Assembly (NCBI RefSeq): GCF_001940165.2
Contig: NZ_CP135162.1
Location: 3,058,001 to 3,122,000, forward strand
DNA length: 64,000 bases
Origin: Roseburia sp. 831b
Lineage (GTDB): Bacteria; Bacillota; Clostridia; Lachnospirales; Lachnospiraceae
Direction of reading: 5' to 3'
Below, piece after piece: positions 1 through 12,696 of this stretch. The notes under the pieces were generated by a model, which did not search any database, was not told the origin of the DNA, and saw only the letters and a list, made by a program, of their open reading frames with translations. Each line of letters starts with the position of its first letter. The first letter of the stretch is position 1. The position numbers and the translations under genes are program-made.

Positions 1-9
1 GTTGAATAA
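1..9 (+). CDS. tuf: Inferred last codons of tuf (EF-Tu), rest outside window
   Basis: The first nine bases read GTT GAA TAA, that is V-E-stop, the usual end of EF-Tu, and are followed by a strong intrinsic terminator. This fits an intact tuf copy lying upstream of the window, because a duplicated EF-Tu tail sits at the other end of the mobile element (8472-8525). Three codons alone prove nothing; the call rests on that symmetry. Confidence 0.4.
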   Translation, partial: VE

Positions 10-45
10 TTTCAATTGATAGTGTCTACAATACAGTAAAATCAA

Positions 46-76
46 GGCTCTCGAGGTTTTCCTCGGGAGCCTTTTT
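46..76 (+). terminator. Intrinsic terminator after the inferred tuf end
   Basis: An 11-bp arm (46-56) pairs with 61-71 around a TTTT loop with one mismatch, and is followed by five T residues. It would end tuf transcription. It could also slow leftward transcripts from the xre gene at 132-599. Confidence 0.85.
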
Positions 77-131
77 ACATGCTTTTATGTAGTTAAGTAA
101 AATCGAAAAGTTCTAAAAAAGTTCTATTTTT

Positions 132-599
132 CTATTTTTTTATGCTTTTCAGAGCTTTTTTACGTTCTGAATCCGTATAGGTATTCTTTAACATATCCAT
201 CATAGTAAACATTTGCTTACGTCCCTCATCATTGAGAACGTAGTAATCAGACATAAGTTCATGCAGCTTCGTCAATTCATCTCTGCCACAAAGAGAGAGT
301 AATGGGAGCATCATGTTATTTGCGTAGCGTTTAATTTGGCTAGCATCCAAGAGTCCGTTCAAGTTGTCCGGAAACGCAGGGAGTTCCTCGCCTTGCTCAA
401 AAGGGTTATCCTTGCAAATCAGTTTAATATCAATATCTAATACATTGGCGATTCTCAATGCGAAATCGTATCGTACAGAAGAATCTCGCTGAATAATTGA
501 ATAAATCGTAGTTGGACTAATATCCGTTTGGCGACATAAATCACGTACGGTCATTCCTTTATCATCAAGTGCTTGTTTTAAATTTTTTCCATATCCCAT
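132..599 (-). CDS. XRE-family HTH regulator, probable element repressor
   Basis: A 155-residue protein with an N-terminal Cro/C1-type helix-turn-helix (about residues 3-60: a K-x-L-K-x-A-L-x-D-K-G-M start, then T-V-R-D-L and S-P-T-T-I-Y recognition helices). The C-terminal part is helical and I do not recognise it. ATG at 599 was chosen because AGGAGG lies 7 nt upstream; the earlier GTG at 608 overlaps that site. It is divergent from the excisionase and integrase genes across a short region with repeated GTACG/CGTAC sequences, which suggests it represses both directions, as in other integrative elements. The repressor role is inferred from position. Confidence 0.75.
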   Translation of the reverse strand: MGYGKNLKQALDDKGMTVRDLCRQTDISPTTIYSIIQRDSSVRYDFALRIANVLDIDIKLICKDNPFEQGEELPAFPDNLNGLLDASQIKRYANNMMLPLLSLCGRDELTKLHELMSDYYVLNDEGRKQMFTMMDMLKNTYTDSERKKALKSIKK

Positions 600-611
600 A
601 ATGAGCACCTC

Positions 612-720
612 CTATACGCAGTATTATACAACAAAAAGTTTTTGTACGCAATTAGTAATTTAATTGTTGACAAATTACGCAAATGGGATTAATATAAATA
701 AAAAAGTACGAAATGCGTAC
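612..720. promoter_or_regulatory. Divergent promoters and operator-like repeats, xre versus xis-int
   Basis: Plus strand: TTGACA (667-672), 17-nt spacer, TAATAT (690-695). Minus strand: TTGCGT (complement of 646-651), 17-nt spacer, TATAAT (complement of 623-628). The sequence TGCGTAC or its complement occurs at both promoters, including a GTACG-N5-CGTAC palindrome at 703-717. These are plausible binding sites for the XRE protein, which would make this a small genetic switch. Confidence 0.6.
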
Positions 721-741
721 AGAAAGAAAGGAGGAGTATCT

Positions 742-936
742 ATGTTGAGTACAAACTATTTAATGACTGCAGAAGAAGTAGCAGAAAAATTGGATTGTTC
801 CACAGGTCATGCGTATAAGTTAATTCGTTCCATGAATCAGGAATTGAAGAAGCAGGGTTTTTACGTAATCGCTGGGAAAATTCCAAGAGCGTTTGTGGAA
901 CAGAAATTCTTTGGAATGACATTGCAAGCACAGTAG
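742..936 (+). CDS. Excisionase-like small HTH protein
   Basis: A 64-residue protein with a winged-helix type segment (L-M-T-A-E-E-V-A-E-K-L then G-H-A-Y-K-L-I-R) and a C-terminal G-K-I-P-R-A-F-V-E-Q-K-F-F strand/helix, the pattern of Xis/HTH_17 proteins found beside integrases of Firmicutes elements. The ATG at 742 follows an AAAGGAGG site; in-frame codons upstream back to 664 lack such support. It lies 17 nt upstream of the integrase gene in the same operon. The role in directing excision is inferred from family and position. Confidence 0.75.
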   Translation: MLSTNYLMTAEEVAEKLDCSTGHAYKLIRSMNQELKKQGFYVIAGKIPRAFVEQKFFGMTLQAQ

Positions 937-953
937 AAAGAGAGGTGAGGTAA

Positions 954-2021
954 ATGCCTGCATACAAAGATAACGTACACAATACATGGTATTGTATGTT
1001 TTACTTCGAGGACTGGACTGGTCAGAAGAAGAAAAAGAAAAAATGTGGATTTAAGACCAAGAAAGAAGCGTTGGAGTGGGAAAGTGAATTTAAGCTTACT
1101 GCAAATGCAAATATGGATATGAAAATGGTTGATTTCATAGAGATTTATTTCAGAGATAAGAACGGAGAATTAAAAGACCGTACAAAGAAGAATAAACGAT
1201 ATATGATTGAAAATCGTATTGTACCATATTTTGGAGATTGCAAGATGAACGAGATTACTGCATCGGATATTATTCAATGGCAGAATGAAATGTTGCAGAT
1301 GAATTTCTCCGATTCCTATTTACGTATGCTTCAAAATCAAATGACAGCTTTGTTTACACATGCATCAAAGATTTACAACTTAAAGAATAACCCATGTAAA
1401 AAGGTTAAAAAGATGGGGCGTTCCGATAGTAGGAGCTTAACGTTTTGGACATTGGAAGAGTACGAGAAGTTCCTTGCTTCGATTGATAAGGACTCAAGAT
1501 ATTACGTACTATTTGAAACACTGTTTTGGACTGGTATGCGTATAGGGGAACTGTTGGCACTTACCAAAGAAGATGTTGATTTGAAAAACAATCAAATCAA
1601 TATTAACAAGACGTTTTATCGTACTGGTGGAAAAGATATTATCACATCGCCAAAAACAGAGCAGTCCATTCGTGTTGTAGAAATACCACAGTTTTTAGCA
1701 GATGAATTGAGAGAGTATTTGGAGCATGTATATGAATTACCAGATACAGAACGTATCTTTCCGGTTGGACAAGAAGCGGTTCAGCACAAGTTAAAATATC
1801 ACGTAGAACAATCTGGTGTTGAGAGGATTAGAGTACATGACCTTAGACATTCTCATGCATCCTATCTTATCAATCAAGGTGTAGAGCCACTTTTGATTAA
1901 GGATAGACTTGGACACAAGGATATCAAAATCACATTGAATACCTACGGACATTTATATCCAAATCAGCAGAAAAAGGTGGCGAATTTATTAGATGCAAAC
2001 AGAACAAAAAAAGAGTCTTAA
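954..2021 (+). CDS. int: Tyrosine recombinase / integrase
   Basis: A 355-residue phage-type integrase. An N-terminal arm-binding domain (about 1-50, basic KKKKKK run at 25-30) is followed by a SAM-like core-binding domain (about 55-150) and the catalytic domain. Visible active-site residues are R196 (G-M-R-I-G-E-L), K234, H295-x-x-R298 (V-H-D-L-R-H), H321 (L-G-H-K-D) and nucleophile Y331 (L-N-T-Y-G-H). It is Tn916/ICE-like, not an IntI: I see no sign of the extra IntI domain. It probably catalyses integration at the 3' end of tuf. The start at 954 follows GAGGTGAGG. Confidence 0.93.
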   Translation: MPAYKDNVHNTWYCMFYFEDWTGQKKKKKKCGFKTKKEALEWESEFKLTANANMDMKMVDFIEIYFRDKNGELKDRTKKNKRYMIENRIVPYFGDCKMNEITASDIIQWQNEMLQMNFSDSYLRMLQNQMTALFTHASKIYNLKNNPCKKVKKMGRSDSRSLTFWTLEEYEKFLASIDKDSRYYVLFETLFWTGMRIGELLALTKEDVDLKNNQININKTFYRTGGKDIITSPKTEQSIRVVEIPQFLADELREYLEHVYELPDTERIFPVGQEAVQHKLKYHVEQSGVERIRVHDLRHSHASYLINQGVEPLLIKDRLGHKDIKITLNTYGHLYPNQQKKVANLLDANRTKKES

Positions 2022-2051
2022 TGGCGGCAACCATAAAGACTCATTGATAAC

Positions 2052-2103
2052 GGAATAACTTCTGTCATCTTCTAACTAAAGATATTATAGCAGAGGTTAT
2101 TCC
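2052..2103. repeat. Inverted repeat between integrase and ATPase genes
   Basis: GGAATAAC (2052-2059) pairs with GTTATTCC (2096-2103), and the pairing continues inward through TTCTG/CAGAG. The long loop contains TATTATAG. No T tract follows, so it is not a simple terminator. It may be an operator or an attenuator for the downstream ATPase gene. Confidence 0.55.
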
Positions 2104-2143
2104 ATCTATCAATCATTAAATAAAGATTTATGGAAGGAGTAAC

Positions 2144-3091
2144 ATGGAAAACTTAAAAATTATCAATATGGCAGATGTGGAAACCAAGAAAGTAGAGTTT
2201 CTTTGGTATCCATATATTCCTTACGGGAAGCTAACGATTATACAAGGCGACCCGGGGGAAGGTAAAACAACAGCGGTATTGCAGATAGCAGCACTTTTGA
2301 CTAAAGGTGAGAAACTTCCGGAGGATGATCAGGAACGTGAACCTGTGAACGTTATCTATCAGACTGCGGAAGATGGATTGGCAGACACAGTAAAACCGAG
2401 ACTAGAAGCTGCAGGGGCAGATTGTTCGAGGGTGCTTGTCATTGATGAATCAGAGCAAGGACTTAGCATGTCAGATTTACGCATCGAAGAGGCGATAAAG
2501 CAGACTGGAGCGAAGCTTGTGATACTTGACCCTATCCAAGCATATCTTGGCTCTGGAGTGGATATGCACCGTGCAAATGAGATACGTCCAGTAATGAAAC
2601 ACTTAGGTGATTTAGCTGAGAAATACAACTGTGCAATCATCCTTATCGGGCATATGAACAAAGCAAGTGGTAGTAAATCTACGTACAGAGGACTTGGCTC
2701 TATCGACTTTCAAGCAACTGCAAGAAGTGTGTTGATTGTCGGTAGAGTAAAGGATGACCCTACTTGCAGAGTGATTGCACACGATAAAAGCAGTCTTGCA
2801 CCGGAAGGACAGTCGATTGCCTTTCGATTAGACAAAGACAATGGGTTTATGTGGGAAGGGCCTATCGAACTGACCGTAGAGGAATTGCTTAGTGGAGAAC
2901 CAAAGGTTACAAAACTGAAAGCAGCCAAGGATTTTCTAACAGAGTTTCTGTCGGATGGACCAAAGCCTAGTACAGAAATCTTTGAAGCTGCAGAAGTGGA
3001 TGGTATCAAAAGACGTACGCTATTTACCGCCAAAGAAGAGTTGGAAATAACAGCTACCAAAGTTGGCGACAAATGGCATTGGGGTTTTTGA
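2144..3091 (+). CDS. RepA-like AAA ATPase (RecA-fold, AAA_25 type)
   Basis: A 315-residue protein with Walker A G-D-P-G-E-G-K-T-T (about residues 36-44) and a Walker B-like L-V-I-L-D-P segment near 125-135, followed by an I-G-H-M-N-K sensor-type motif and S-T-Y-R-G-L-G-S. This is the hexameric helicase-like fold of plasmid RepA and element-borne DNA-processing ATPases. The C-terminal about 65 residues resemble a winged helix (R-R-T-L-F-T-A-K-E-E-L). It probably helps replication or maintenance of the excised element. An iteron-like repeat cluster starts 13 nt after its stop codon. Confidence 0.85.
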   Translation: MENLKIINMADVETKKVEFLWYPYIPYGKLTIIQGDPGEGKTTAVLQIAALLTKGEKLPEDDQEREPVNVIYQTAEDGLADTVKPRLEAAGADCSRVLVIDESEQGLSMSDLRIEEAIKQTGAKLVILDPIQAYLGSGVDMHRANEIRPVMKHLGDLAEKYNCAIILIGHMNKASGSKSTYRGLGSIDFQATARSVLIVGRVKDDPTCRVIAHDKSSLAPEGQSIAFRLDKDNGFMWEGPIELTVEELLSGEPKVTKLKAAKDFLTEFLSDGPKPSTEIFEAAEVDGIKRRTLFTAKEELEITATKVGDKWHWGF

Positions 3092-3104
3092 TATGAGTAG
3101 GGAA

Positions 3105-3168
3105 GATTGCAAGAGTGCAAGAATGCAAAGTATATATAACATTGCAATCTTGCAACCTTGCATTCTTG
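3105..3168. repeat. Iteron-like TTGCAAG cluster
   Basis: About six copies of TTGCA(A/T) or TGCAAG lie in 64 bases, arranged as two opposed groups around an AT-rich centre (GTATATATAAC). The outer arms include a perfect 11-bp inverted repeat, CAAGAATGCAA versus TTGCATTCTTG. Placement directly after the RepA-like gene suggests an origin or autoregulatory site. This is inference. Confidence 0.55.
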
Positions 3169-3184
3169 ATTTTGGGAGGAACGT

Positions 3185-3424
3185 ATGAAAGAGAAACAAA
3201 TTCAGATATCACAGAGGCTTTTTATTACGCTCGTAAAATGTTTTGTACTTGATATGGAAGTGGATTGTGAAGAGATAAAGAAAGAACTAAATAGGAAGTT
3301 GGATGCTGTGGCATTGCGACAATTATACAGTACATATAAAACAGCTCCAACGGATGCGGAGAAAGAGGAAGCACGCCAAAAATATCTCGATGCAAAAGGA
3401 GTACCTACGAGCTTTCGATGGTAG
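3185..3424 (+). CDS. Conserved small accessory protein of MobV elements
   Basis: A 79-residue, charged, mostly helical protein ending F-R-W, with an internal Y-K-T-A-P-T-D-A-E-K-E-E-A-R segment. I recall similar short proteins (sometimes labelled complexin-2-like in automatic annotation) next to relaxase genes in Firmicutes elements; function unknown. It has a good GGGAGG site before the ATG. It sits between the ATPase and the relaxase. Confidence 0.65.
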   Translation: MKEKQIQISQRLFITLVKCFVLDMEVDCEEIKKELNRKLDAVALRQLYSTYKTAPTDAEKEEARQKYLDAKGVPTSFRW

Positions 3425-3787
3425 AGAGATTTTCACTTTAGCGATATATAACAAGTACGTGTCACGTACTTGTAAGTATAGTCAAGGAAGAAAGCGGATG
3501 GTGTGCGACGACAAAATCATTGGCTTCGGGTATCAGCTTACTGATAGTCGATAGGCAATGATTGCACAAGGGAAGGCTTCGCCTGGGAGTGTAACTCCCA
3601 TTGAGAATGGGTAAGGCATCGCCAGGGCAACGCCCTATGAGATGCAGTCAAGGCGGCAGCTTTGTGCACTCCGCATAGGAGCGAAATACGACTTGATGTC
3701 CGCAGGATGTCAAGTCTGGTATTGAGCCATAACTGTCAGAGCCAGTTATGGACTCACCAAAATTACAGAACAGAGAGGAGGAATTAG
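3425..3787. other. Gene-free hairpin field upstream of mobV, candidate oriT
   Basis: A 363-base gap with a chain of inverted repeats: ACAAGTACGT/ACGTACTTGT (3451-3473), AGGC/GCCT (3574-3584), GGGAGT/ACTCCC (3585-3599), AGGGC/GCCCT (3624-3636), GACTTGA/TCAAGTC with inner TCC/GGA (3690-3716), and CATAACTG/CAGTTATG (3728-3750). MobV relaxases usually nick an oriT just upstream of their own gene, so this region is the likely transfer origin. The exact nick site is not recognisable to me. Confidence 0.5.
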
Positions 3788-5371
3788 ATGCCAGCAAGTG
3801 CACAAACAGTATCTGTAAGCAGAGGAAAAACTGCAATAGAACATGACCTAAGAGAATATACGCCGAACAATGTTGACCCATCTATGTCGGTATACAACGC
3901 AGTTTTGATAAATGAACTCGGTGGGAAATCTCTTGCGGAATATACAAACGAATATATGAAACCGTATATTGAAGAATACAATGCTAAGCAACGTAGAAGT
4001 GATAGAATGAAGTCTTATGATTATGCAGCGGACTACATTGAAGAGCAAAATAATATGCAGAAATCGAGACAGAATTACACAGCCGGTCAGCTTGCGTATG
4101 AGTATGTAATACAGTTTGGTGACCACCAAACTATGGATGTTAACGAAGTGGTAAAGAAGCCTAAACTTCGTAAGGAAGTGCATGCGATGTTTGAGGAGTT
4201 CATTCAATCTTATCAATCATCCTATCCTCATATGAGGATTATTCTTGCTACGGTGCATATGGATGAACCCAAGGGAACACCACATATGCATATCCTAGTT
4301 CAGCCGATTGGAGAGGGCTATAAGCAGGGATTATCGCATCAGGTATCACTTACAAAGGCATTAGCTTGTGATGGTTTTGAACGTTCAGAGAAAAAGGGAG
4401 ACCGCCTATCTATGACAAGATGGCAAGATGATATTAAGGATAATATTATGGAACCGATTCTGGTACGTCATAAATATGCAAGAGCCTATAAGGATGGAGA
4501 AAAACAGCATATGCCGGTAGCGATGTATAAAAGAGCAATGGCAGAAAAGGATGCGATTGTAGAAGATGCTAAGGTAGAAGCGGAACAAATCGTAGAGAAA
4601 GCTCGTGAAGAGGTCGAAGAATTGGAAGAGGAGAAGGATTATCTAATCAATGGTAATGGAAAAGACTCTGCGTATGATATGCCTTTTGAAGATTGGTCGA
4701 TTGCAGATTTGAAGTGTGAAAAAGAATTCCTAATAAACGGAGACCCAGACTTTTCGGGAGATATATTCAGGGGTGTTTCAGAATTGGAAGAAAAGCACTC
4801 GGAATTAAGAGCTGATATAAAAGACTTGGAGCAAGCAAAGGAAGAAAAGACTGCAGAGGTAGCAAGTGTCGAAGATAGGTATTCAAAGATGTGGGATGAG
4901 TATGAGGCGTTAAGAGATGGGTACAAAGATAAGGATGGAAAACATATCTTGGGATATAATGAGCTGGTGCAGCGACATAAGGAGCTACTTCAAGATCCTG
5001 CAAGATTATTAGAGACAGAGGAAGGTCAGCAGGTTCTTGAAGAAGCGAAAGAGGAGATTGTAGAGACAGTGCAAAAGAACCTCGTATCCAATATGCTTGG
5101 ATTTATCAAAAGAGAGATTTTTGACACATTGAAAGAATGGCTTGTAGAACCAATTTACAAAGCTATCAATGAAATGATGCGTGGACATTGGTTTCAGTTA
5201 AATGACAATGATAAGAAAATCTTAACCGGAGCAATAGACAGAACAGTTGACCGATTAGTTGATAAGTTGGACATTGGCTCTAAGATAGAGGAGAATGTTT
5301 GCGAGAATATGCCAAGTGAAAATCAGATAGAGCAAGAAGTACAAAGAATATACAGAGGGCGAGGAAGATAG
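3788..5371 (+). CDS. mobV: MobV-family relaxase (Pre/Mob)
   Basis: A 527-residue mobilization protein. The conserved histidine motif is visible as V-H-M-D-E-P-K-G-T-P-H-M-H with H157, D159, E160, H166 and H168, the HxDE...PHxH signature of Pre/Mob relaxases. The N-terminal third is the relaxase domain. From about residue 255 on, long acidic and basic heptad-like stretches predict coiled coils. It would nick oriT and lead the strand into a recipient through a conjugation machine supplied by another element; no type IV secretion genes are present here. A terminator follows at once. Confidence 0.92.
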   Translation: MPASAQTVSVSRGKTAIEHDLREYTPNNVDPSMSVYNAVLINELGGKSLAEYTNEYMKPYIEEYNAKQRRSDRMKSYDYAADYIEEQNNMQKSRQNYTAGQLAYEYVIQFGDHQTMDVNEVVKKPKLRKEVHAMFEEFIQSYQSSYPHMRIILATVHMDEPKGTPHMHILVQPIGEGYKQGLSHQVSLTKALACDGFERSEKKGDRLSMTRWQDDIKDNIMEPILVRHKYARAYKDGEKQHMPVAMYKRAMAEKDAIVEDAKVEAEQIVEKAREEVEELEEEKDYLINGNGKDSAYDMPFEDWSIADLKCEKEFLINGDPDFSGDIFRGVSELEEKHSELRADIKDLEQAKEEKTAEVASVEDRYSKMWDEYEALRDGYKDKDGKHILGYNELVQRHKELLQDPARLLETEEGQQVLEEAKEEIVETVQKNLVSNMLGFIKREIFDTLKEWLVEPIYKAINEMMRGHWFQLNDNDKKILTGAIDRTVDRLVDKLDIGSKIEENVCENMPSENQIEQEVQRIYRGRGR

Positions 5372-5396
5372 AAATCCGAAAGGGTTTCTATTTTTT
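5368..5396 (+). terminator. Terminator after mobV
   Basis: ATAGAAATCC (5368-5377) pairs with GGGTTTCTAT (5382-5391) over a GAAA loop and runs into six T residues. The stem begins inside the mobV stop codon. Confidence 0.85.
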
Positions 5397-5440
5397 ATGG
5401 TATCGTGTATAATAGGGGTGTAAAAAGAACTGTTAAACAG

Positions 5441-5517
5441 TTCGACAAATTTGAATTTTTCTGTGAGCCACTGCTCGTAAATTCGCATAAGTACTGGATG
5501 TTACGGAGCGTAACATC
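5441..5517. repeat. First cassette-boundary sequence (hairpin-less form) plus GATGTTACG hairpin
   Basis: TTCGACAAATTTGAATTTTT at 5441-5460 joins the left motif (CGACAA) and the right motif (ATTTGAATTT) of the boundary repeats found at 6221, 6888 and 7461, but without the central CTTTCAG hairpin. A perfect 9-bp hairpin GATGTTACG/CGTAACATC follows at 5497-5517. The rest of 5461-5618 has no gene. Confidence 0.5.
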
Positions 5518-5618
5518 GTTGTCACAGTTCGTATCTTGAGTGTTCCGATATAAGTGTTATACGATGACCTCGCAAACAAAAACAACCACAAAAACAAGAA
5601 ATTTAGGAGGTCGTTATT

Positions 5619-6191
5619 ATGACATTTGGAGAAAAATTAAGGGAAGCAAGAAAAGAAGTATGTTTATCGCAGGAGCAGTTGGCCGAAAAAATGTGTGTTT
5701 CAAGATCGGCAATCGCAAAATGGGAGACAGATAAGGGTATGCCTGATATAAATAATCTTAAGGTTATGTCAAAATTACTTAATGTAAGTGTTGATTATCT
5801 TTTAGATAATGAAGAAAAGATTAGCTTTAATGAAATAAAGGAAGCTATTAACATTAATGATTATGAAAAGAATGGCAAATGCAGAGACAAAAAAGACGCG
5901 GCTTGCTATGAAAATAATAAAGATGCTAATGCAATATATGCCCTTGTTAGAAATAAGAAGATGACTAAGACTGAGTGGATTATTGATTTTATTATTCAGC
6001 CCGGTGTTGTTGATTTACTAGATCAAACTAAAGAGTTTGCAGGATTCTATTTAGTAGAAAAGGGAACAAAGCAGTATCTAGTGAAAGTAACAAATGAATT
6101 TATCGTGACAAATGAACTTGCCGAAAAGGTGGAGCCCAAAAAGTTTGTTGTAGGAAATCATCAGTACAAAAAGTTATATCAGATTGTTTAG
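5619..6191 (+). CDS. XRE-family regulator, cassette gene 1
   Basis: A 190-residue protein. Residues 1-65 form a Cro/C1-type HTH (G-E-K-L-R-E-A-R, L-S-Q-E-Q-L-A-E-K, S-R-S-A-I-A-K-W-E-T, then P-D-I-N-N-L). The C-terminal about 120 residues have no domain I recognise. The ATG follows TTAGGAGG. It is the first of four unrelated genes, each followed by a similar hairpin repeat, and is AT-rich compared with the integrase module. Confidence 0.8.
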   Translation: MTFGEKLREARKEVCLSQEQLAEKMCVSRSAIAKWETDKGMPDINNLKVMSKLLNVSVDYLLDNEEKISFNEIKEAININDYEKNGKCRDKKDAACYENNKDANAIYALVRNKKMTKTEWIIDFIIQPGVVDLLDQTKEFAGFYLVEKGTKQYLVKVTNEFIVTNELAEKVEPKKFVVGNHQYKKLYQIV

Positions 6192-6220
6192 AAATTGAAG
6201 TTTTATCTATGTAAAGGGCC

Positions 6221-6259
6221 CGATAACTTTCAGTAATACTGAGAGATGAATTTGAATTT
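6221..6259. repeat. Cassette-boundary repeat B
   Basis: CTTTCAGT (6227-6234) pairs with ACTGAGAG (6238-6245) over an AAT loop, and GAATTTGAATTT follows at 6248-6259. The left edge CGATAA matches CGACAA of repeat D. It lies 29 nt after the stop of cassette gene 1 and just upstream of the ribosome site of gene 2. Confidence 0.65.
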
Positions 6260-6276
6260 ATTGAGGAGATATAGAA

Positions 6277-6873
6277 ATGAAGAATCTAACAAAAAAATAT
6301 CCAGTTGTTACTACACTAATACTAATTTGTTTAGTATTTGCTATTGTTTCTTCCTTTTATGGAAAAATGTATGATTTATTTGCATTTCACTCTAAACCTA
6401 TTTATATTTGGCAATATATAAGTGGTACTTTTATGCATGGTAGTAAAGAAGCACCGATTTGGTTTTTATGGGTTCACTTAATTTTAAATTGTCTTATGAT
6501 AATTCCTTTTGGCAGTATATTAGAAAATAAACTAGGTTCAAAAAATACATTTATTGCATTTATTGTCGCTATGATAATATCCTCACTTCTTTTTCAAGTA
6601 ATAACATTGCCTTATAGTGAAGATATAGTAGCTAGTGGTATATCAGCAATAGGATATGCATTTGTTACTGGTGGAATTATGAATATGAAAGATTTATGGA
6701 AAAAATATTCTATTAAAACAAAAGGGTTATATATAATTTTGATTAGTCTATCACTAATAATGCTTTTGCCAATTATTACTGGCTGGATGTCAACTCTTAT
6801 GCATCTATCAGGTATTATCAGTTATTTTATAGTTTATTTTACAATAAGACATTTTAAAATAACAGAGAGGTAA
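6277..6873 (+). CDS. Rhomboid-like intramembrane protein, cassette gene 2
   Basis: A 198-residue, very AT-rich, polytopic membrane protein with about six hydrophobic segments. Rhomboid landmarks are visible: G-T-F-M-H-G near 50-55, H67-x-x-x-N71 in H-L-I-L-N, a G-I-S-A motif with S123 in place of the usual G-x-S-G, and H176 in M-H-L-S-G. Ser123/His176 would be the catalytic dyad of a rhomboid serine protease. The altered GISA motif leaves activity uncertain. Substrate unknown. The start ATG follows TTGAGGAG. Confidence 0.75.
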   Translation: MKNLTKKYPVVTTLILICLVFAIVSSFYGKMYDLFAFHSKPIYIWQYISGTFMHGSKEAPIWFLWVHLILNCLMIIPFGSILENKLGSKNTFIAFIVAMIISSLLFQVITLPYSEDIVASGISAIGYAFVTGGIMNMKDLWKKYSIKTKGLYIILISLSLIMLLPIITGWMSTLMHLSGIISYFIVYFTIRHFKITER

Positions 6874-6887
6874 TTACAAATTTCAAT

Positions 6888-6952
6888 TTGTCGAACACTT
6901 GAAAATTTCAGTCTTCCGGTGAGATTGAAAGCGCTCATGAATTTGAATTTTC
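6888..6952. repeat. Cassette-boundary repeat C
   Basis: TTTCAGTCT (6906-6914) pairs with AGATTGAAA (6922-6930) with one G-T pair, loop TCCGGTG. GAATTTGAATTT at 6939-6950 is identical to the 12-mer of repeat B. TCGAAC on the left side matches the CGACAA position of the other copies. Confidence 0.7.
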
Positions 6953-6974
6953 TTTACTTAGGAGGTGTTTGTAT

Positions 6975-7448
6975 ATGGCTGATATTGAATTTATTAGATG
7001 CTCTGGGACAAATGAAGACTTTATCGAAAACTGTCAATTATTAGATATAGATTTAGATAGGCGAGTAGGAAGAGTTATTAAGAGAGATAAATATAAACAG
7101 TATAATCAACTTGATGAGATAAAGGAGGTTGTAGTTGTGTATGTTGATGGAAAAGCCGCTGGTGCTGGAGCGATTAGAGAATATCAGTACGGTGATATCG
7201 ACAATGCAACCGAGTTGAAAAGAGTATTTGTCAGAGAAGAATTCCAAGGAAAAGGAATAGGAACCAAACTGGTTCTTGAATTAATCGAGTGGGCGAAAGA
7301 ACTAGGATATAGGAAATTGATTCTTGAAACTGGAGAATTGTTACAAGAATCGTGTCATGTATATCGAAAAGTGGGATTTAATAAAATGGATAATTATGGT
7401 CCTTATGTTTCAATGCCAGAATCATTGTGCATGATGAAAGAATTGTAA
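6975..7448 (+). CDS. GNAT N-acetyltransferase, cassette gene 3
   Basis: A 157-residue GCN5-related acetyltransferase. The acetyl-CoA loop is visible as [13 protein letters not shown] (Q/R-x-x-G-x-G/A), preceded by the E-L-K-R-V-F-V strand and followed by C-H-V-Y-R-K-V-G-F near the C-terminus. The ATG at 6975 was chosen over an upstream TTG because a GGAGG site lies 9 nt away. Substrate unknown; such genes in mobile elements sometimes acetylate drugs or toxins, but nothing here shows it. Confidence 0.85.
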
Positions 7449-7460
7449 CGGAAAAGAACT

Positions 7461-7512
7461 CGACAACTTTCAGTCTTGCGGAGAGATTGAAAGCAACAGA
7501 AGATTTGAAGTT
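7461..7512. repeat. Cassette-boundary repeat D
   Basis: The best-formed copy: CGACAA at 7461, then CTTTCAGTCT (7467-7476) pairing with AGATTGAAAG (7484-7493) over TGCGGAG with one G-T pair. GATTTGAAGTT at 7502-7512 matches GAATTTGAATTT of copies B and C with few changes. It starts 12 nt after the stop of gene 3. Confidence 0.7.
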
Positions 7513-7524
7513 GATGGAGATATT

Positions 7525-8256
7525 ATGAAAAACATTAAGGTAAAAAAGACAGTATATATTGTACTCGTTATATTAGGTTTGTTCATTGCTCAAACTTTTG
7601 CAAGCAAGTTAGGTGGTTTCATTGCTGATTTAATTCAATATGCAGTGATTGATAAAGATGGTACATTTATGAGTATTTCTGTGCATCACATTATTCAGAT
7701 GATAGTGGCTTTAGTGCTTATTTTTGTTATTAGTAAGAAAAGTGATTTAGAATTTTGGTTAAAGCCGAGGTTAAATAAGAGCGGTATACTATATACGACG
7801 ATTTTTGATATTGTCATTTTAATGTATGTTCTTATTAGTTATATCGTTGGATATTCACTTAATACAATTGTGCCATACGCATATGAGCTAAATATATCAA
7901 ATGTTTTAGGAACCTTAGGGTTTCAACTGTTTTTATCAGGAACATCAGAAGAAATTTTGTTTAGAGCACTTCCGATTACTGTTCTTGGTGGAGTGATAGG
8001 CAAAGATAAAAAAGGTTATGCATTTATTATTGTAATAGCCTCGGTACTATTTTCTGCTGCACATATCCAATGGACATTGTTTCCTGTTTCATTAACTTTT
8101 TCATGGTTTCAGTTGATTTATGCATTTATATTAGGTATAGCGTATGGACTTACATATGTGAAATCAGAAAGTATTATTTACCCCATGATTATGCACGGAT
8201 TGAGCAATTTCTTTATGGTTGGAATGGGGTATATATTTATGACTGTGATGGACTAA
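7525..8256 (+). CDS. CPBP-family intramembrane glutamic protease, cassette gene 4
   Basis: A 243-residue membrane protein with about seven or eight hydrophobic segments. The Abi/CPBP (Rce1-like) motifs are present: E142-E143-x-x-x-R147 in S-G-T-S-E-E-I-L-F-R, H180 in S-A-A-H-I, and H224 in M-I-M-H-G-L-S-N. In Gram-positive bacteria members act in bacteriocin maturation or immunity; that role here is only a possibility. The gene is AT-rich and the last in the cassette series. Confidence 0.85.
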   Translation: MKNIKVKKTVYIVLVILGLFIAQTFASKLGGFIADLIQYAVIDKDGTFMSISVHHIIQMIVALVLIFVISKKSDLEFWLKPRLNKSGILYTTIFDIVILMYVLISYIVGYSLNTIVPYAYELNISNVLGTLGFQLFLSGTSEEILFRALPITVLGGVIGKDKKGYAFIIVIASVLFSAAHIQWTLFPVSLTFSWFQLIYAFILGIAYGLTYVKSESIIYPMIMHGLSNFFMVGMGYIFMTVMD

Positions 8257-8274
8257 TACATAGTTAAGAGCACG

Positions 8275-8310
8275 CCCAACTTTCAGTTTTCATAAGAATT
8301 GTTGCAATAA
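8275..8310. repeat. Degenerate cassette-boundary repeat E
   Basis: GCCCAACTTTCAGTTTT keeps the left arm CTTTCAGT (8280-8287) of the boundary repeat, but the right arm is decayed (AAGAATTGTTGCAA). It lies 18 nt after the stop of gene 4, the spacing expected for a cassette end. Confidence 0.5.
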
Positions 8311-8348
8311 AAAGATAGACAAATAGAGGTTGATGTGCTAGAGTTTAG

Positions 8349-8369
8349 ATGGCTCCAAAATGGCTCCAA
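8349..8369. repeat. Tandem ATGGCTCCAA repeats near the element end
   Basis: Two copies of ATGGCTCCAA, 11 bp apart (8349-8358 and 8360-8369), lie about 100 bp inside the right element boundary. Their position fits arm-type integrase-binding sites. No copy was found at the left end. The surrounding 8311-8471 has no gene. Confidence 0.4.
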
Positions 8370-8471
8370 TAATTTTGGGAAATAAAAATACATAATGTAT
8401 GTAGTGCCTAAAAATAGCATAAAATCAACAAAAAGCATGGTAGAAGATAGCGACAAATCCAAAACCGGGAG

Positions 8472-8525
8472 CGTGAAGGTGGACGTACTGTAGGATCAGG
8501 ACGTGTTGCTACAGTTATCGAATAA
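8472..8525 (+). pseudogene. tuf: Duplicated 3' tail of tuf at the right element junction
   Basis: The reading frame gives R-E-G-G-R-T-V-G-S-G-R-V-A-T-V-I-E-stop, the C-terminus of EF-Tu. The codons directly upstream (N-R-E) do not continue EF-Tu, so homology starts sharply at about 8472. This is the displaced original 3' end of tuf left when the element integrated and supplied a replacement tail. The junction marks attR. The original tuf terminator follows at 8561. Confidence 0.85.
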
Positions 8526-8560
8526 TCAATTATTGATAATTCAATAAATTAGCATTTATA

Positions 8561-8592
8561 CAGGGGAAGTGATTTTCACTTCCCCTGTTTTT
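8561..8592 (+). terminator. Original tuf terminator
   Basis: A perfect 11-bp stem, CAGGGGAAGTG (8561-8571) with CACTTCCCCTG (8577-8587), loop ATTTT, then five T residues. It lies 35 nt after the displaced tuf stop codon. Confidence 0.92.
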
Positions 8593-8693
8593 CTATAAAA
8601 TTCTATTCAAGTCAATTCAATAACAGAATCATTGTAAACGCACCATAGTCGGTACTAATACTTGATTAGCCGCTCCAAAGAGCGGCGTTGGTT

Positions 8694-10295
8694 TTAAAGT
8701 TGCTTTCTGCATTCCTTTGGTAGCTTGTCTGACCAAGGAAGCAGATCTTCACAAAAACTTGCATCATGGTCATCCATGTGCTTTGGAATCTCTGTCAGAA
8801 GATATTCAAAGTAATTATAAGGTTTTAGATCGTTAGCCTTTGCAGTTTCTGCAATGCTGTAAATGATTGCACTTGCTTCTGCCCCTGCGATGGTATCAAT
8901 CATAACCCAGTTTTTCTTGCCTACACAGAATGGCCGAATTGCCTGTTCTGCCGAATTGTTATCGATTGGCACTTCTCCATCTTCAAGGAATGTTCTCAAA
9001 TACTTTTCCTGATTCAAGGAGTAAGTAAATCCATTTGCTGTCTTACTCTTCGGCGGAACAGACATGAGATTCTGTTTTGCCCATGCAAAATAAGCATCCA
9101 CCAGTGGCTTTACAGTCAACTGACGATGTTTCAGGCGTTCATCCGGATTCATGTCCCCAAGCTTGTTCTCCTCGCGATAGATTGCTTGGATTTGCTTCAA
9201 TGCCAGATATGCAAGAGACATTTTCTGGTTTGCCTTTGGTAGAGCCTTAACAGCCTCATCGAAGCGACGTCTTGCATGTGCCCAGCACCCAGCGATTTTC
9301 AGGTCTTCGCGTTCTTTTTCAATCGTATGGTAGACCTGATAGCCATCCGTCAGACAAATTCCTTGAAAATCTTTAAGAAAAGCTCGTGGATGACTGGCAT
9401 TACGAGATGGTTGGTACTCGTACAAGATGATCTGCTTATTCAGATACATCTTTCCTGTACGGTATACCCACATGTAATGCTTATTTCCGGTAGTTCTGTT
9501 TTCTTTTGAAACAAGAACCGGAGTCTCATCTGCTTGTAAGACATGATAGTCATACATTTTCTCGTGCAGATAATCATAAAAGATTGAGAGATATCTCTCT
9601 GCACATAGAATGGTCCAATGAGCCATATCCGCGCGATCGATGTTAAGACCCATTCTTTGGAATTCCTGTTCCTGACGATAAAGAGGTGCTGCATTAACAT
9701 ATTTGGCATTCCAAATGCCTGCTAGCAAAGATGGTGAAACAAGACTGTTTCTTAGTAAATAAGCAGGATGATCTGCCTTTTTGAAATGATTGTCCTTTTT
9801 AGATTTATACACGCCAACGTGATGTTCTTCGATTTCAATCTTCATTGGGGTAAAACGATAGCGATGGTATACTTCATCTTCAAGCTGATACCAGCCATCT
9901 TCTCCGAATTCGTCGATTAACTCGTCTTCCGTCATCTTGTGTTCAACCGGAACGATTGGAAGACCTTTGATGTCAGCAGCGCGTTTCCCCTTTTTCTTTT
10001 TACTATGAGGTTTCGATGTTTCTTCTTCCTCTGAGCATTCAAGGGCTGCAACAGCTTCTGCTTCATTAAAATAAACGATATTGCCATCAACCTCTAAGAA
10101 GCTGATCTGGTTATCTACATCAAGTTTCTCAGATGACTTCCCAAAACGGTTATTGTTCAATACAGCGACCTGTTCCAACAACAGTTGCAGTTTCCGATCA
10201 ATATCTTTGAGTTGTGATTGTTGTGCCAAAAACAGTTGAATAAGGGTAGCCTTGTCAAAATTATTCAATTGTTCTTCTGTATATTCCATCGCCAT
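8694..10295 (-). CDS. tnpC: IS66 transposase TnpC
   Basis: A 533-residue DDE transposase. The N-terminal about 50 residues form a leucine-rich helix (L-Q-L-L-L-E-Q-V-A-V-L-N-N-N-R-F-G). The usual Cys-x-x-Cys zinc-finger region lacks cysteines here (E-H-K-M-T-E-D-E-L). The catalytic core shows the DDE signature residues in Q-A-D-E-T-P-V, L-T-D-G-Y-Q-V-Y and D-N-N-S-A-E-Q-A-I-R-P, and the C-terminal IS66 tail (Y-N-Y-F-E-Y-L-L-T) is present. It catalyses transposition together with TnpA and TnpB. Confidence 0.95.
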   Translation of the reverse strand: MAMEYTEEQLNNFDKATLIQLFLAQQSQLKDIDRKLQLLLEQVAVLNNNRFGKSSEKLDVDNQISFLEVDGNIVYFNEAEAVAALECSEEEETSKPHSKKKKGKRAADIKGLPIVPVEHKMTEDELIDEFGEDGWYQLEDEVYHRYRFTPMKIEIEEHHVGVYKSKKDNHFKKADHPAYLLRNSLVSPSLLAGIWNAKYVNAAPLYRQEQEFQRMGLNIDRADMAHWTILCAERYLSIFYDYLHEKMYDYHVLQADETPVLVSKENRTTGNKHYMWVYRTGKMYLNKQIILYEYQPSRNASHPRAFLKDFQGICLTDGYQVYHTIEKEREDLKIAGCWAHARRRFDEAVKALPKANQKMSLAYLALKQIQAIYREENKLGDMNPDERLKHRQLTVKPLVDAYFAWAKQNLMSVPPKSKTANGFTYSLNQEKYLRTFLEDGEVPIDNNSAEQAIRPFCVGKKNWVMIDTIAGAEASAIIYSIAETAKANDLKPYNYFEYLLTEIPKHMDDHDASFCEDLLPWSDKLPKECRKQL

Positions 10296-10574
10296 AATGT
10301 ACCTCTTTTCTAAGGTCTATTATAGCGGATATGGACTTAAATTGCGAATGTTGTTCGTTTCAAAATTCGGCAAATTGCCTATGCCTGTAAGCTCCCACAA
10401 GGGATTTGTAGACCTTGTAAATGCAGAGTTTTCAAAACAATGGATATAAATTACAATTACCTAAAAGCGCAATAACACGCTAATAATGCAGAATACTGGA
10501 CTTACAGATGATTGTAATTACCATATTAGAACCCAGGAATGATGCCCCTGAAATTTCTACCTTTTGCACAATCA

Positions 10575-10937
10575 TTATGCCATATGTTCTGGCGGTCGGA
10601 TCTCTTGAACCGTTTTCTTTGGAAAAATTGTTAGACCTTCCATGAGCCAACGAAATTGCTGACTGGTAAGTGCTCGTACTTCGGATTCATTTCTTGGCCA
10701 CACGAAGTTCCCTTTCTCTAGGCGCTTATACAAGAGCAAGAATCCGTCCTTTTCCCACACCAATCCTTTGATTCTGTCAGTCTTGCGACCACAGAAAAGG
10801 TAAAGCGTATCAGGAACGTACGGGCTACTTCCTGTTTTGGATTCGATGATAGAAGCTAATGAATCCAAGCCAAAACGGAGATCCGTGTAGCCGCAAACGA
10901 TATAAATCTGTTTAAAACAAGTGGCATCATTCAACAT
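10575..10937 (-). CDS. tnpB: IS66 accessory protein TnpB (Orf2)
   Basis: A 120-residue IS66 Orf2-like protein with the family core I-V-C-G-Y-T-D-L-R-F-G-L-D-S-L-A, then L-Y-L-F-C-G-R-K-T-D-R-I-K and F-R-W-L-M-E-G-L near the end. The ATG at 10937 overlaps the end of tnpA by 11 nt, the usual coupled layout. Upstream codons to 10994 are only the out-of-frame end of tnpA. Required for transposition in related elements; mechanism unclear. Confidence 0.93.
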   Translation of the reverse strand: MLNDATCFKQIYIVCGYTDLRFGLDSLASIIESKTGSSPYVPDTLYLFCGRKTDRIKGLVWEKDGFLLLYKRLEKGNFVWPRNESEVRALTSQQFRWLMEGLTIFPKKTVQEIRPPEHMA

Positions 10938-11316
10938 GGGCAAGCACCCCAAGAACTTTTGATAAAAGTGAAGATGATGTGTTTTCTGTAACACGAAGAG
11001 TCACACCATGCGCTGAAAGTTCAATAAATGATTCATCGCACTCTTGATTTGTTTCTGCAAAAGAATAATTACCATTTGTCATTAGATTGGTAGGAACAGG
11101 AACAATCGCTTGTTCAACAACCTCGCTTGGAAGCGAATCCAAACAGGCTTTGCGAACCTGAGTCATTCGGTAATAATAGTTTGCGGTGGTAATAGAATGT
11201 TCCTGACACCATTCGCTGACAGACATTCCAACAGGCCGATTGTTACAATCTTGAATCATTTGAGCCCATTCTTGTATACGACAATTGCGTGATGCTATAG
11301 ATGTTTGAGATTTCAT
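10927..11316 (-). CDS. tnpA: IS66 accessory protein TnpA (Orf1)
   Basis: A 129-residue protein with an HTH-like N-terminus (W-A-Q-M-I-Q-D-C-N-N-R-P-V-G-M-S-V-S-E-W-C-Q-E-H, then T-T-A-N-Y-Y-Y-R), the OrfA pattern of the IS66 family. It probably binds the element ends. The promoter side (11341-11376) holds two tandem copies of a GTTTAGTCTAAA-type palindrome that could be its operator. Confidence 0.85.
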   Translation of the reverse strand: MKSQTSIASRNCRIQEWAQMIQDCNNRPVGMSVSEWCQEHSITTANYYYRMTQVRKACLDSLPSEVVEQAIVPVPTNLMTNGNYSFAETNQECDESFIELSAHGVTLRVTENTSSSLLSKVLGVLAHVE

Positions 11317-11340
11317 AATAGAAGCCCTCCTTGTGTCAAA

Positions 11341-11376
11341 AAAGTTTAGACTAAACTTTTTAGACTAAACTTTTTT
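11341..11376. repeat. Tandem TTTAGTCTAAA palindromes in the IS66 leader
   Basis: AAGTTTAGACTAAACTTTTT is followed directly by AGACTAAACTTTTTT, so the AGACTAAACTTTTT block occurs twice. Each unit is self-complementary. It lies inside the IS66 end, upstream of tnpA, and may bind a regulator of transposition. Confidence 0.5.
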
Positions 11377-11605
11377 GATGAATATTAATTGTTGGGTCTA
11401 TTTTCTCAAATTTTCATAGCACAATCTATATACGCACTATGGTGCGTTTACGAATCATTATACAAAACATTTCCCAAAAACATTATTCAATAACAGAATC
11501 ATTTGATAAATCATTTCTAAAGATATGGTTCATACATAGAGCATAGGAACAAATCCGGGTCAGATTCATTGTCCAAAATTACTCACATCACATACAAATG
11601 AACAA

Positions 11606-11838
11606 TTACTGTTTAAAAAGAAAAAAGTATTGTTAAAAAAGTAAAATAAATAGATGAGAGGAGGTTGATAAAATCATTTACTGTTTCATACGATAATTAG
11701 AAATTTTAGACAGTAAAATGAAAGAAAACCAATACACGAACTCAAATAATTACTGTTTAAAAGTGGAAGAGGAGAATTTAAACAGTAAAGAAGCGAGATG
11801 AGCACAATAAATACTGTTTATAAAGAGAAAAACAAAAT
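11606..11838. repeat. Four-unit inverted-repeat array (TTACTGTTTAAA...)
   Basis: Four units start at 11606, 11677, 11750 and 11812. Unit 3 is perfect over 12 bp: TTACTGTTTAAA (11750-11761) with TTTAAACAGTAA (11777-11788). Unit 2 has TTTACTGT/ACAGTAAA (11677-11684, 11710-11717). Unit 4 has TACTGTTT/AAACAGTA (11812-11819, 11831-11838). Unit 1 keeps only a good left arm. Loops differ in sequence. The stretch 11460-11919 contains no gene; the array ends about 80 nt before the nuclease-like pseudogene. Confidence 0.7.
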
Positions 11839-11919
11839 TCAAACAGTAAAGATGGCAAGGAAACAGTGTAAAGAAAGATTGCAGTCAGATTTCCATGGAG
11901 AAAAAATAAAGGGGGAGGC

Positions 11920-12696
11920 ATTATAGAAGCAATTAGAAAAGAAAGAGAATTATTAGAGAAGACATTACAAAAGGTAAAGAAAGAAGTAGAAATGTTGCCC
12001 AAGGGACATTTACAATGCTCTAAAAGTAATGGTATGGAACAATACCTGATAGATGGAAAATATGTAAGTAAAAAGAAAATAGATTGGATAAGAGGAGTTG
12101 CTCAAAGAGAGTATTATGAGGATATAATACCGATAATGGAAAATATATTGAAAAGTCTATACTCTGCTGATAAAATTTATAAAAATCAGGCCTTAAATAA
12201 TAGCTATCAGTCGTTATGCAATGCGTGAAAAAAATTAATTACGCCGTTATTTTTCCCGATTGAGGAGAAGATTGGATCATTTATGACGGAACAATATCCT
12301 CCGGGAGAATTCGAGAAAGAGAATCATTCCGAATTTTTTACAGCAAAAGGGGAGAGGGTGCGTTCCAAATCAGAGCTTCTTATTTCAGAGCAATTATGTA
12401 AACATGGAATACCATATCGATACGAGAAAACGATAGAGTTGTTAGAATGGAACAGAGTAATCGTATGCAGGCCGGATTTCACAGTGATGAATAGAAGAAC
12501 TGGGAAAATATATTTGTATGAACATTTTGGAAGGATGGATGATTTCATGTATGTAGAAAATAGTATGAGAAAACTTGACTTATATGAGAAAAATGGATAT
12601 CTGCTTGGAAAGAATTTAATCATAACCCGTGAAACAATCGCTTCACCACTCAATATTCAAAAAGTGGATTCCTATATAAAAGAGTTTTTACTATAA
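11920..12696 (+). pseudogene. Broken gene for an endonuclease-fold-like protein
   Basis: One reading frame is coding-like from about 11920 to 12696 but is cut by a single TGA at 12226-12228. Its first half (I-E-A-I-R-K-E-R-E-L-L to S-L-C-N-A) has no ATG at its start: after GGGGGAGG come ATT and ATA, and the first ATG is 11992. The second half (after K-K-L-I-T-P and P-P-G-E-F) has G-E-R-V-R-S-K-S-E-L, G-I-P-Y-R-Y-E-K and C-R-P-D-F-T-V, then L-Y-E-H-F-G-R-M-D. This pattern of E, D and K residues resembles PD-(D/E)XK nuclease folds, and I recall similar intact proteins of Lachnospiraceae. Probably decayed by one nonsense and one start-codon mutation. Confidence 0.65.

Follow-up and report, generated by a model that had tools for sequence, protein, structure and literature searches.

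The window considered here is the whole analyzed stretch of 64,000 nucleotides (nt) from Roseburia sp. 831b (contig NZ_CP135162.1, positions 3,058,001 to 3,122,000), and near its left end an integrative mobilizable element lodged in the tuf gene carries, one behind another, genes for an XRE-family regulator, a rhomboid-family protein, a GNAT acetyltransferase and a CPBP membrane protein, with copies of a hairpin-forming site between them. Why are four such different genes divided by the same short DNA site, and what, if anything, moves them? The comparisons described below indicate that these genes are very probably exchangeable cassettes and, as far as an alignment of related loci can tell, that a site-specific recombinase probably performs the exchange. 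Taking the evidence as a whole, we consider it likely on balance that the four genes are mobile gene cassettes at the end of the mobilizable element, and that a recombinase acting in trans links their ends at A(A/C)|TT.

An array of cassettes and junction sites

All four genes lie on the plus strand between the relaxase gene and the right end of the element, and the sites that divide them read in the same direction. The array opens at 5440–5458 with a hairpin-less simple junction, GTTCGACAAA|TTTGAATTT, which contains the outer parts of a site only and forms the first, attI-like junction; half-sites similar to it flank an IS91-like element in another locus (L167). Cassette 1 encodes the XRE-family regulator (5619–6191; HTH_3, 1e-16) and is followed at 6225–6259 by a short hairpin variant, AACTTTCAGT-AAT-ACTGAGAGATGAA|TTTGAATTT, to which a covariance model gives 23.3 bits (E 0.64) and whose type, AACTTTCAGTAA...ACTGAGAGAYGAATTTGAATTT, recurs slightly altered in four loci (L067, L070, L071 and L098). 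Cassette 2 encodes the rhomboid-family protein (6277–6873; PF01694). Behind it stand a left half, AAATTTCAATTTGTCGAAC, at 6878–6896, which belongs to a hairpin-less kind of junction (type B) and resembles a motif at other cassette ends, and then the complete hairpin site AAA|TTTCAGTCTTCCGGTGAGATTGAAAGCGCTCATGAA|TTTGAATTT at 6903–6950 (65.7 bits, E 2e-10). Cassette 3, the GNAT acetyltransferase (6969–7448; PF00583), is separated by the site AAC|TTTCAGTCTTGCGGAGAGATTGAAAGCAACAGAAGA|TTTGAAGTT at 7465–7512 (72.3 bits, E 6.1e-12) from cassette 4, the CPBP (Rce1-like) membrane protein (7525–8256; Pfam match). The array ends at 8278–8291 with a left half (AACTTTCAGTTTTC; CCCAACTTTCAGTTTTC) whose right half is absent and which the covariance model does not list at E≤1; the letters GCCCAAC occupy 8274–8280.

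An earlier sequence-only reading of this stretch had described the genes as cassette-like, each ending shortly before a copy of one motif, and most of that description stands. The stop codons of the XRE, rhomboid, GNAT and CPBP genes precede TTTCAG by 36, 32, 19 and 24 nt, respectively, the junction at 5441 does join the outer parts without a hairpin, the copy at 8275 that was called decayed is a left half alone, and the gene calls agree with Pfam (HTH_3, Rhomboid, Acetyltransf_1, Rce1-like, Mob_Pre, Phage_integrase). Two of the three copies that it regarded as clear, at 6888 (here 6903) and 7461 (here 7465), are strong matches to the model, while the third, at 6221, is weak by itself and gains from the recurrence of its type elsewhere. 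The consensus proposed for the motif, CTTTCAGTCT/AGATTGAAAG, has an exact match at 7467 and nowhere else.

The sequence-only reading had suggested a covariance-model search of Lachnospiraceae genomes. The model was built from 46 copies, including the two strong copies of the window, and was run on the genome of the window and on the named loci; wider searches were made by pattern. When 150 of the 3049 first-look candidates in the 3.37-Mb genome were scored, 6903–6950 and 7465–7512 were the sole strong matches, and 6225–6259 was the one further match at E≤1. The core pattern TTTCAGTCTN{3,8}AGATTGAAAG likewise has two matches in this genome, both in the array, and none in the reversed control; a chance origin of the motif is rejected by such controls, which gave 0, and by the covariance E-values. 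Among 85 strict-pattern copies from the window and the named loci, the fold is more stable than that of dinucleotide shuffles (mean z −3.06, 91% of copies under −2). In window 5000–9000 no Rfam match attains the gathering score of its family, and the two matches with E≤1 overlap no site.

Of 299 same-family genomes, 9 contain the core pattern (reversed control, 0), and the pattern TTTCAGTCTTNNNGAGAGRYTGAAAG identified 83 stretches among GTDB species genomes. According to their record titles, 58 are Lachnospiraceae (the isolate Lachnospiraceae A2 among them), 22 are other Clostridia or Bacillota (with the isolates Roseburia porci and Blautia caecimuris), and one each is Treponema, Spirochaetia and Bacteroidales. 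The Bacteroidales title looks wrong, the apparently matching genome G188 being placed in the family of the window, and the spirochete records may be affected by binning errors. One of them, the Spirochaetia metagenome-assembled genome (MAG) with locus L068, carries several cassette-like genes with the motif in a genome that also has integron-integrase fragments with stops; it is possibly a meeting point of two cassette systems, or else a binning error. Viral spread was considered and dropped, since six viral-contig stretches found with a loose pattern have no tail and resemble chance; a stricter pattern gave 0 matches in viral contigs. Phages gave no match, and plasmids matched the tuf end alone.

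Genes are exchanged and reordered at the sites

Do related arrays carry the same genes in the same order? They do not, and content as well as order differ. The clearest case is a Roseburia MAG (locus L179, identical to the named locus L060) whose array reads CPBP-GNAT-GNAT2-rhomboid, as compared with XRE-rhomboid-GNAT-CPBP in the window. Identity between the two is 98.5% across the CPBP stretch (7465–8291), 99.35% across the GNAT stretch (6903–7519) and 99.7% across the rhomboid stretch (6250–6912), and the hairpin at window 6903–6950 precedes the same GNAT gene in identical form in L179. GNAT2, between GNAT and rhomboid, is a new gene absent from the window, and the rest of window 1–12000 has no match at L179 beyond the sites. 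The presence of near-identical cassettes in another order argues for cassette exchange. In another MAG (L180), a 154-nt stretch that includes the end of the CPBP gene (91.6% identity) stands before a site within another frame, and different genes come next.

The same conclusion follows from pairwise comparison, and the gene-cassette reading proposed earlier is borne out by one-sided flank sharing together with the reordered array. When flanks were compared up to the site at 84 sites, 10 pairs shared the upstream flank only (44–400 nt), 12 shared the downstream flank only (64–401 nt) and none shared both, a further 6 upstream and 9 downstream pairs having been dropped as short or non-abutting; in one of the 10 upstream-sharing pairs the common sequence is an IS91-like end and not a gene. 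A count with other thresholds and a few more loci gave 7 upstream, 18 downstream and 0 both. DNA alignments between loci (n=224) break preferentially at the sites: their 353 internal ends include 71 that are no more than 25 nt away from a site, as against 8.0 expected from site density.

The arrays are polar. At 85 sites the nearest upstream gene is on the same strand in 66, on the opposite strand in 3 and missing in 16, and the nearest downstream gene is on the same strand in 65, opposite in 6 and missing in 14. Successive same-strand hairpins are 504 to 3884 nt apart (24 spacings, with L060 and L179, the same place, both counted). The motif is found beside varied genes and is not confined to a single family of them; ten chosen cassette proteins comprise hydrolases, acetyltransferases, an LD-carboxypeptidase, a dehydrogenase, a Cass2/GyrI-like regulator and relatives of aminoglycoside-modifying enzymes, the last in L024 and in L167, whose array has no hairpin. 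As a separate observation, a common leader (TTCTCACTTGAGGTATTTT...) follows the site in L064 (at 2160), L077, L081 and L102 behind four different upstream sequences, and in L064 it stands before a small gene.

The hairpin interior is linked to neither neighbor

Which part of the site travels with which gene was addressed column by column at 83 sites, with 6 upstream-sharing and 8 downstream-sharing families. Columns up to −1 follow the upstream flank and columns from +46 follow the downstream flank, and the interior from +10 to +34 is close to background for both; at +28 to +34, agreement within the six upstream-sharing families is 0.33–0.67 against a background of 0.37–0.55. Identical hairpins occur in 0 of 7 upstream-sharing pairs and in 2 of 18 downstream-sharing pairs, one of the two being the window GNAT with L179. 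The hairpin is kept with the downstream gene for GNAT, for CPBP save two letters (window versus L179), and for the pair L049/L069; as a general rule, travel of the hairpin with the downstream gene was rejected on the count of 2 in 18. The T/G choice at +42 seemed at first to travel with the downstream gene, but the column count did not bear this out and the impression was not used.

Because the hairpin interior is linked to neither flank, the hairpin seems to have a point of exchange on either side. Gene-free tandem hairpin units in L038 and L102 and hairpin-less junctions at L021, L108 and L112 are consistent with a module that may or may not accompany a gene.

IS91-like elements end on cassette junctions

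If the exchange is site-specific, which enzyme could perform it? An IS91-like element repeatedly abuts the sites. It is about 2.53 kb long, its ends are conserved in several copies, and it encodes a tyrosine recombinase (about 283 amino acids) and an IS91 transposase, which belongs to the IS91 family with 432 bits against NCBIfam NF033538 (cut-off 125). The element starts with A(A/C)|TTCTTTAGG (variants TTGATTAG and TTGTTAAG) and finishes with a hairpin and GTTCA(A/C); this end pattern occurs in 26 of the 299 family genomes. Its ends are specific for the junction: when two mismatches are allowed in the cassette start, such a start follows 35 of the 42 distinct ends whose flank is 14 nt or longer, versus 6 of 4151 other GTTC sites on the plus strand of the collected sequences. 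The seven ends without a cassette start include L120 and L130.

A gene for the recombinase lies within 3.5 kb of 17 of 44 IS91-like ends, every time pointing away from the junction, and 16 of these 17 genes have an IS91 transposase match beside them. Many of the remaining ends are cut by contig ends, and some with at least 1500 nt of upstream sequence have no recombinase. Elements of the IS91 family with a tyrosine recombinase gene are known, and the candidate enzyme sits in such an element; the difference is that here the ends fall on gene-cassette junctions and the element can stand among co-oriented cassettes. This is seen in L040, where the element lies inside an array with cassettes on either side, and in L022 and L118, where co-oriented accessory genes precede the element and a cassette start follows it, at which point the contig ends. 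The upstream side of the junction in L022 is also present in L055, where a hairpin stands instead of the element, and in L065, L087 and L118 the element ends join cassette starts without any hairpin.

The recombinase resembles the XerA, XerC and XerD proteins and the integron integrases alike. The nearest relative of known structure is 2a3v, a Vibrio integron integrase (E 3.5e-29), but the L022 protein is under every family cut-off, with 191 bits for NF040815 (XerA/integron integrase), 169 for TIGR02249, 162 for XerD and 158 for XerC. In the alignment to 2a3v, about 32 residues (query 175–206) stand opposite 73 residues of the chain (177–249), and for this reason the extra insert that integron integrases have between two catalytic patches seems to be missing. 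At least 4454 relatives at E≤1e-20 were found among 7999 candidates in a protein search, and the few of them listed by name are called site-specific recombinase or integrase.

Three further observations concern these elements. In the Roseburia porci locus L040, the IS91 transposase gene is split into two frames (4183–5333) and the adjacent recombinase frame is open. In L125, a second, XerA-like tyrosine recombinase (6516–7487; 231 bits, above the NF040815 cut-off of 220) directly follows an IS91-like end and site start in the same array, near toxin-antitoxin-like genes, and is a possible alternative enzyme. In L174 (G225:C11), an IS91-type end hairpin stands alone, with no recombinase, at CAAATTCCAATT; as judged by eye, it appears to fall inside a response-regulator-like frame.

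A model for cassette exchange and its alternatives

We propose that a cassette would be a short unit of ribosome-binding site, gene and short tail that starts with TTTGAATTT or TTTCAG and ends in AA(A/C), and that a recombinase would join such ends at A(A/C)|TT, a junction we infer from the hairpin-less and tandem cases as well as from the ends of the IS91-like elements. In this scheme, the 36-nt hairpin unit (TTTCAG...GAAGA) would serve as a recombination module, possibly acting as a folded strand, with an exchange point on either side, and a gene could be excised alone or together with the hairpin to its left or to its right; two exchange points flanking the hairpin would account for a hairpin variant linked to neither neighbor. 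The window array would have no adjacent enzyme of its own and would rely on one in trans, for which the best candidate is the tyrosine recombinase of the 2.5-kb IS91-like elements, whose own ends are on the same junctions. That this unproven candidate performs the exchange is a possibility to which we give somewhat less than an even chance, and more tentative still is the full proposal of a second gene-cassette system in gut Lachnospiraceae, separate from integrons, in which a tyrosine recombinase spread by IS91-like elements and without the integron insert would join A(A/C)|TT ends and a double-sided hairpin module could be exchanged independently of both genes.

Several observations weigh against this proposal. 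Recombination is read from the comparison of loci, none having been observed directly, and the per-column linkage set contains one pair with both flanks in common. The column at +11 leans downstream (0.79 versus a background of 0.47), agreement at +42 (0.67 with the upstream flank and 0.79 with the downstream flank, against a background of 0.46) is ambiguous, as is +45, and the right-hand cut would therefore be placed only between +35 and +45. The hairpin is so conserved in sequence that its base pairs show little covariation. Hairpin-less junctions fold weakly: of seven folded, the top strand gave z of −3.3 once and −1.7 to 0.9 in the other six, and the bottom strand gave −4.1 and −2.6 in two and −0.7 to 1.2 in the remaining five. 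The association of recombinase and motif is weak as well: at E 1e-50 the recombinase was not found in the genome of the window or in 20 further of the 26 motif genomes, many of them fragmentary MAGs; pooled, it is present in 5 of 26 motif genomes versus 14 of 290 others (p 0.013, for sets chosen differently); and in the even sample, with at most 8 candidates scored per genome, it is present in 15 of 299 genomes, one of which has the motif (1 of 9 versus 14 of 290, p 0.37). The hairpin model at E≤0.1 found nothing in 20 element-end regions from genomes without the exact pattern; among these regions, cassette-like rows with hairpin-less junctions are seen in L167, L169, L173 and L175 and in none of L157, L170 and L174.

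How does such an array compare with an integron? The two share co-oriented tandem single-gene cassettes with diverse accessory functions, hairpin-forming dividers, modular exchange, reordering, and clusters without an integrase, and the polarity, the one-sided sharing and the reordered array reveal cassettes in one orientation that are exchanged singly. In integrons, the attC interior travels with the upstream gene; here the interior is not tied to that gene, the site consensus differs, and hairpin and hairpin-less junctions alternate. The attC boxes read RYYYAAC and GTTRRRY with a cut at G|TT, and integrons recombine through the folded bottom strand; of the sites described here, the hairpin folds well and most hairpin-less junctions do not. 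The array works like an integron array but is not classed as an integron because two defining features were tested and are absent. It would be improbable, in our view, that these are nonetheless ordinary integron cassettes without a nearby integrase (clusters of attC sites lacking integron integrases, CALIN), in which the sites would be attC of a conventional integrase acting in trans. The near-background interior of the upstream-sharing families is contrary to the attC rule, and no integron integrase exceeded the TIGR02249 cut-off of NCBIfam in any of the 26 motif genomes (9 from the family sample and 17 chosen from the genomes that gave the 83 stretches); the top scores are fragments, some with stops, in the one motif-bearing Spirochaetia MAG, and these fragments speak for the integron reading, as does the Cass2-type protein, known from integrons, among the cassette contents. 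AAC precedes the hairpin in 46% and GTT follows it in 38% of 83 copies, and these triplets are conserved in attC according to a passage of PMC3607928, yet the letter pairs show no clear covariation (C-G 17, A-T 27, C-T 19, A-G 15, with A 5). Firmicutes are listed among integron-bearing phyla in a passage of one review (PMC8618304), but passages of a survey report one complete integron and a few CALIN in Firmicutes, and describe integrons as extremely rare there (PMC9024848).

The hairpins could alternatively be dispersed repeats, similar to repetitive extragenic palindromes (REP) or miniature inverted-repeat transposable elements (MITE), that are kept for another reason and whose neighbors are shuffled passively by RecA or illegitimate recombination. 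The nearly invariant core (partly a result of pattern choice), the tandem units and a hairpin variant unlinked to either flank would suit an independently moving repeat. Such a repeat is short for RecA, however, and a crossover within it would keep each half with its own neighbor, whereas the interior observed here is unlinked to both; the strong co-orientation of genes and the element ends that meet cassette starts without a hairpin also argue against this explanation, which we regard as unlikely. Another hypothesis is that the HUH transposase of the IS91 family, and not the tyrosine recombinase, moves the cassettes by rolling-circle transposition, with the junction as its target site. The position of IS91-like ends on the junction and the transposase beside nearly every recombinase gene near these ends are consistent with it, but in the loci read the cassettes' own ends lack element-like terminal hairpins, both cassette ends are precise where one-ended transposition leaves one ragged, and order changes and single-gene exchange better suit site-specific recombination, so that we consider transposition by this enzyme doubtful. 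Highly improbable is a function as regulatory leader or in translation coupling, by which the hairpin would recur before accessory genes without a role in exchange: it does lie directly upstream of ribosome-binding sites and contains GGAGAG, but neither of the two Rfam matches with E≤1 in window 5000–9000 overlaps a site, the boundaries of DNA exchange coincide with the site, and the arrays are reordered. A mini-frame encoded by the hairpin and coupled to the next gene was also rejected, since there is no frame effect and no special stop position (17, 1 and 19 of 57 across the three frames).

If the cassette system proposed here is a working one, accessory genes for acetyltransferases, hydrolases and regulators, and in single arrays for relatives of aminoglycoside-modifying enzymes, would form a hidden, swappable pool that moves among gut and rumen bacteria, in the window on a mobilizable element. 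These cassettes would probably be missed by tools built on the integron integrase and attC models. The system would resemble integron-style gene shuffling in bacteria where such systems are thought very rare, and would provide an independent case of how hairpin DNA sites are recombined. Among the literature matches listed (titles and abstract openings, with few subscription journals and no preprints), neither this system nor a cassette role for elements combining IS91 with a tyrosine recombinase is described.

The host element and its surroundings

The element that carries the array occupies approximately 10–8531 and is lodged in the 3′ end of tuf (EF-Tu). The intact tuf gene ends near position 9, as judged by an open reading frame (ORF) at 823–2010 of L178 that reaches window 9, and a second copy of the tuf end lies at 8472–8531 (80.6% identity over 62 aligned columns). 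The backbone, on the plus strand, encodes a phage-type tyrosine integrase (954–2021; PF14657, PF14659, PF00589), an AAA_25 ATPase (2144–3091; PF13481, 6.6e-29) and a Mob_Pre/MobV-like relaxase (3788–5371; PF01076 with 28.1 bits, cut-off 25.5; NCBIfam MobV with 37.9 bits, below the cut-off of 100). The integrase was dropped as a cassette enzyme because it has an arm-binding domain and an attachment site in tuf, and because the L179 array lies outside such an element. A copy of the backbone in G139 (L177), beside a tuf end, is 89% identical across window 1224–4857 and stops at a contig end within the mob gene; with at most 4 candidates scored per genome, G139 was the sole other match to the relaxase at E 1e-60 among the 299 same-family genomes.

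Directly to the right of the tuf-end copy, an IS66-like element (recognized by eye from three minus-strand ORFs) occupies 8634–11451; its ends are inverted, and the target duplication (GAATCATT) measures 8 bp. At 11606–11850, a sequence of about 40 nt (TTACTGTTT...ACAGTAAA) is repeated four times in direct orientation with a spacing of 61–72 nt, and these repeats are possible iterons or regulator sites.

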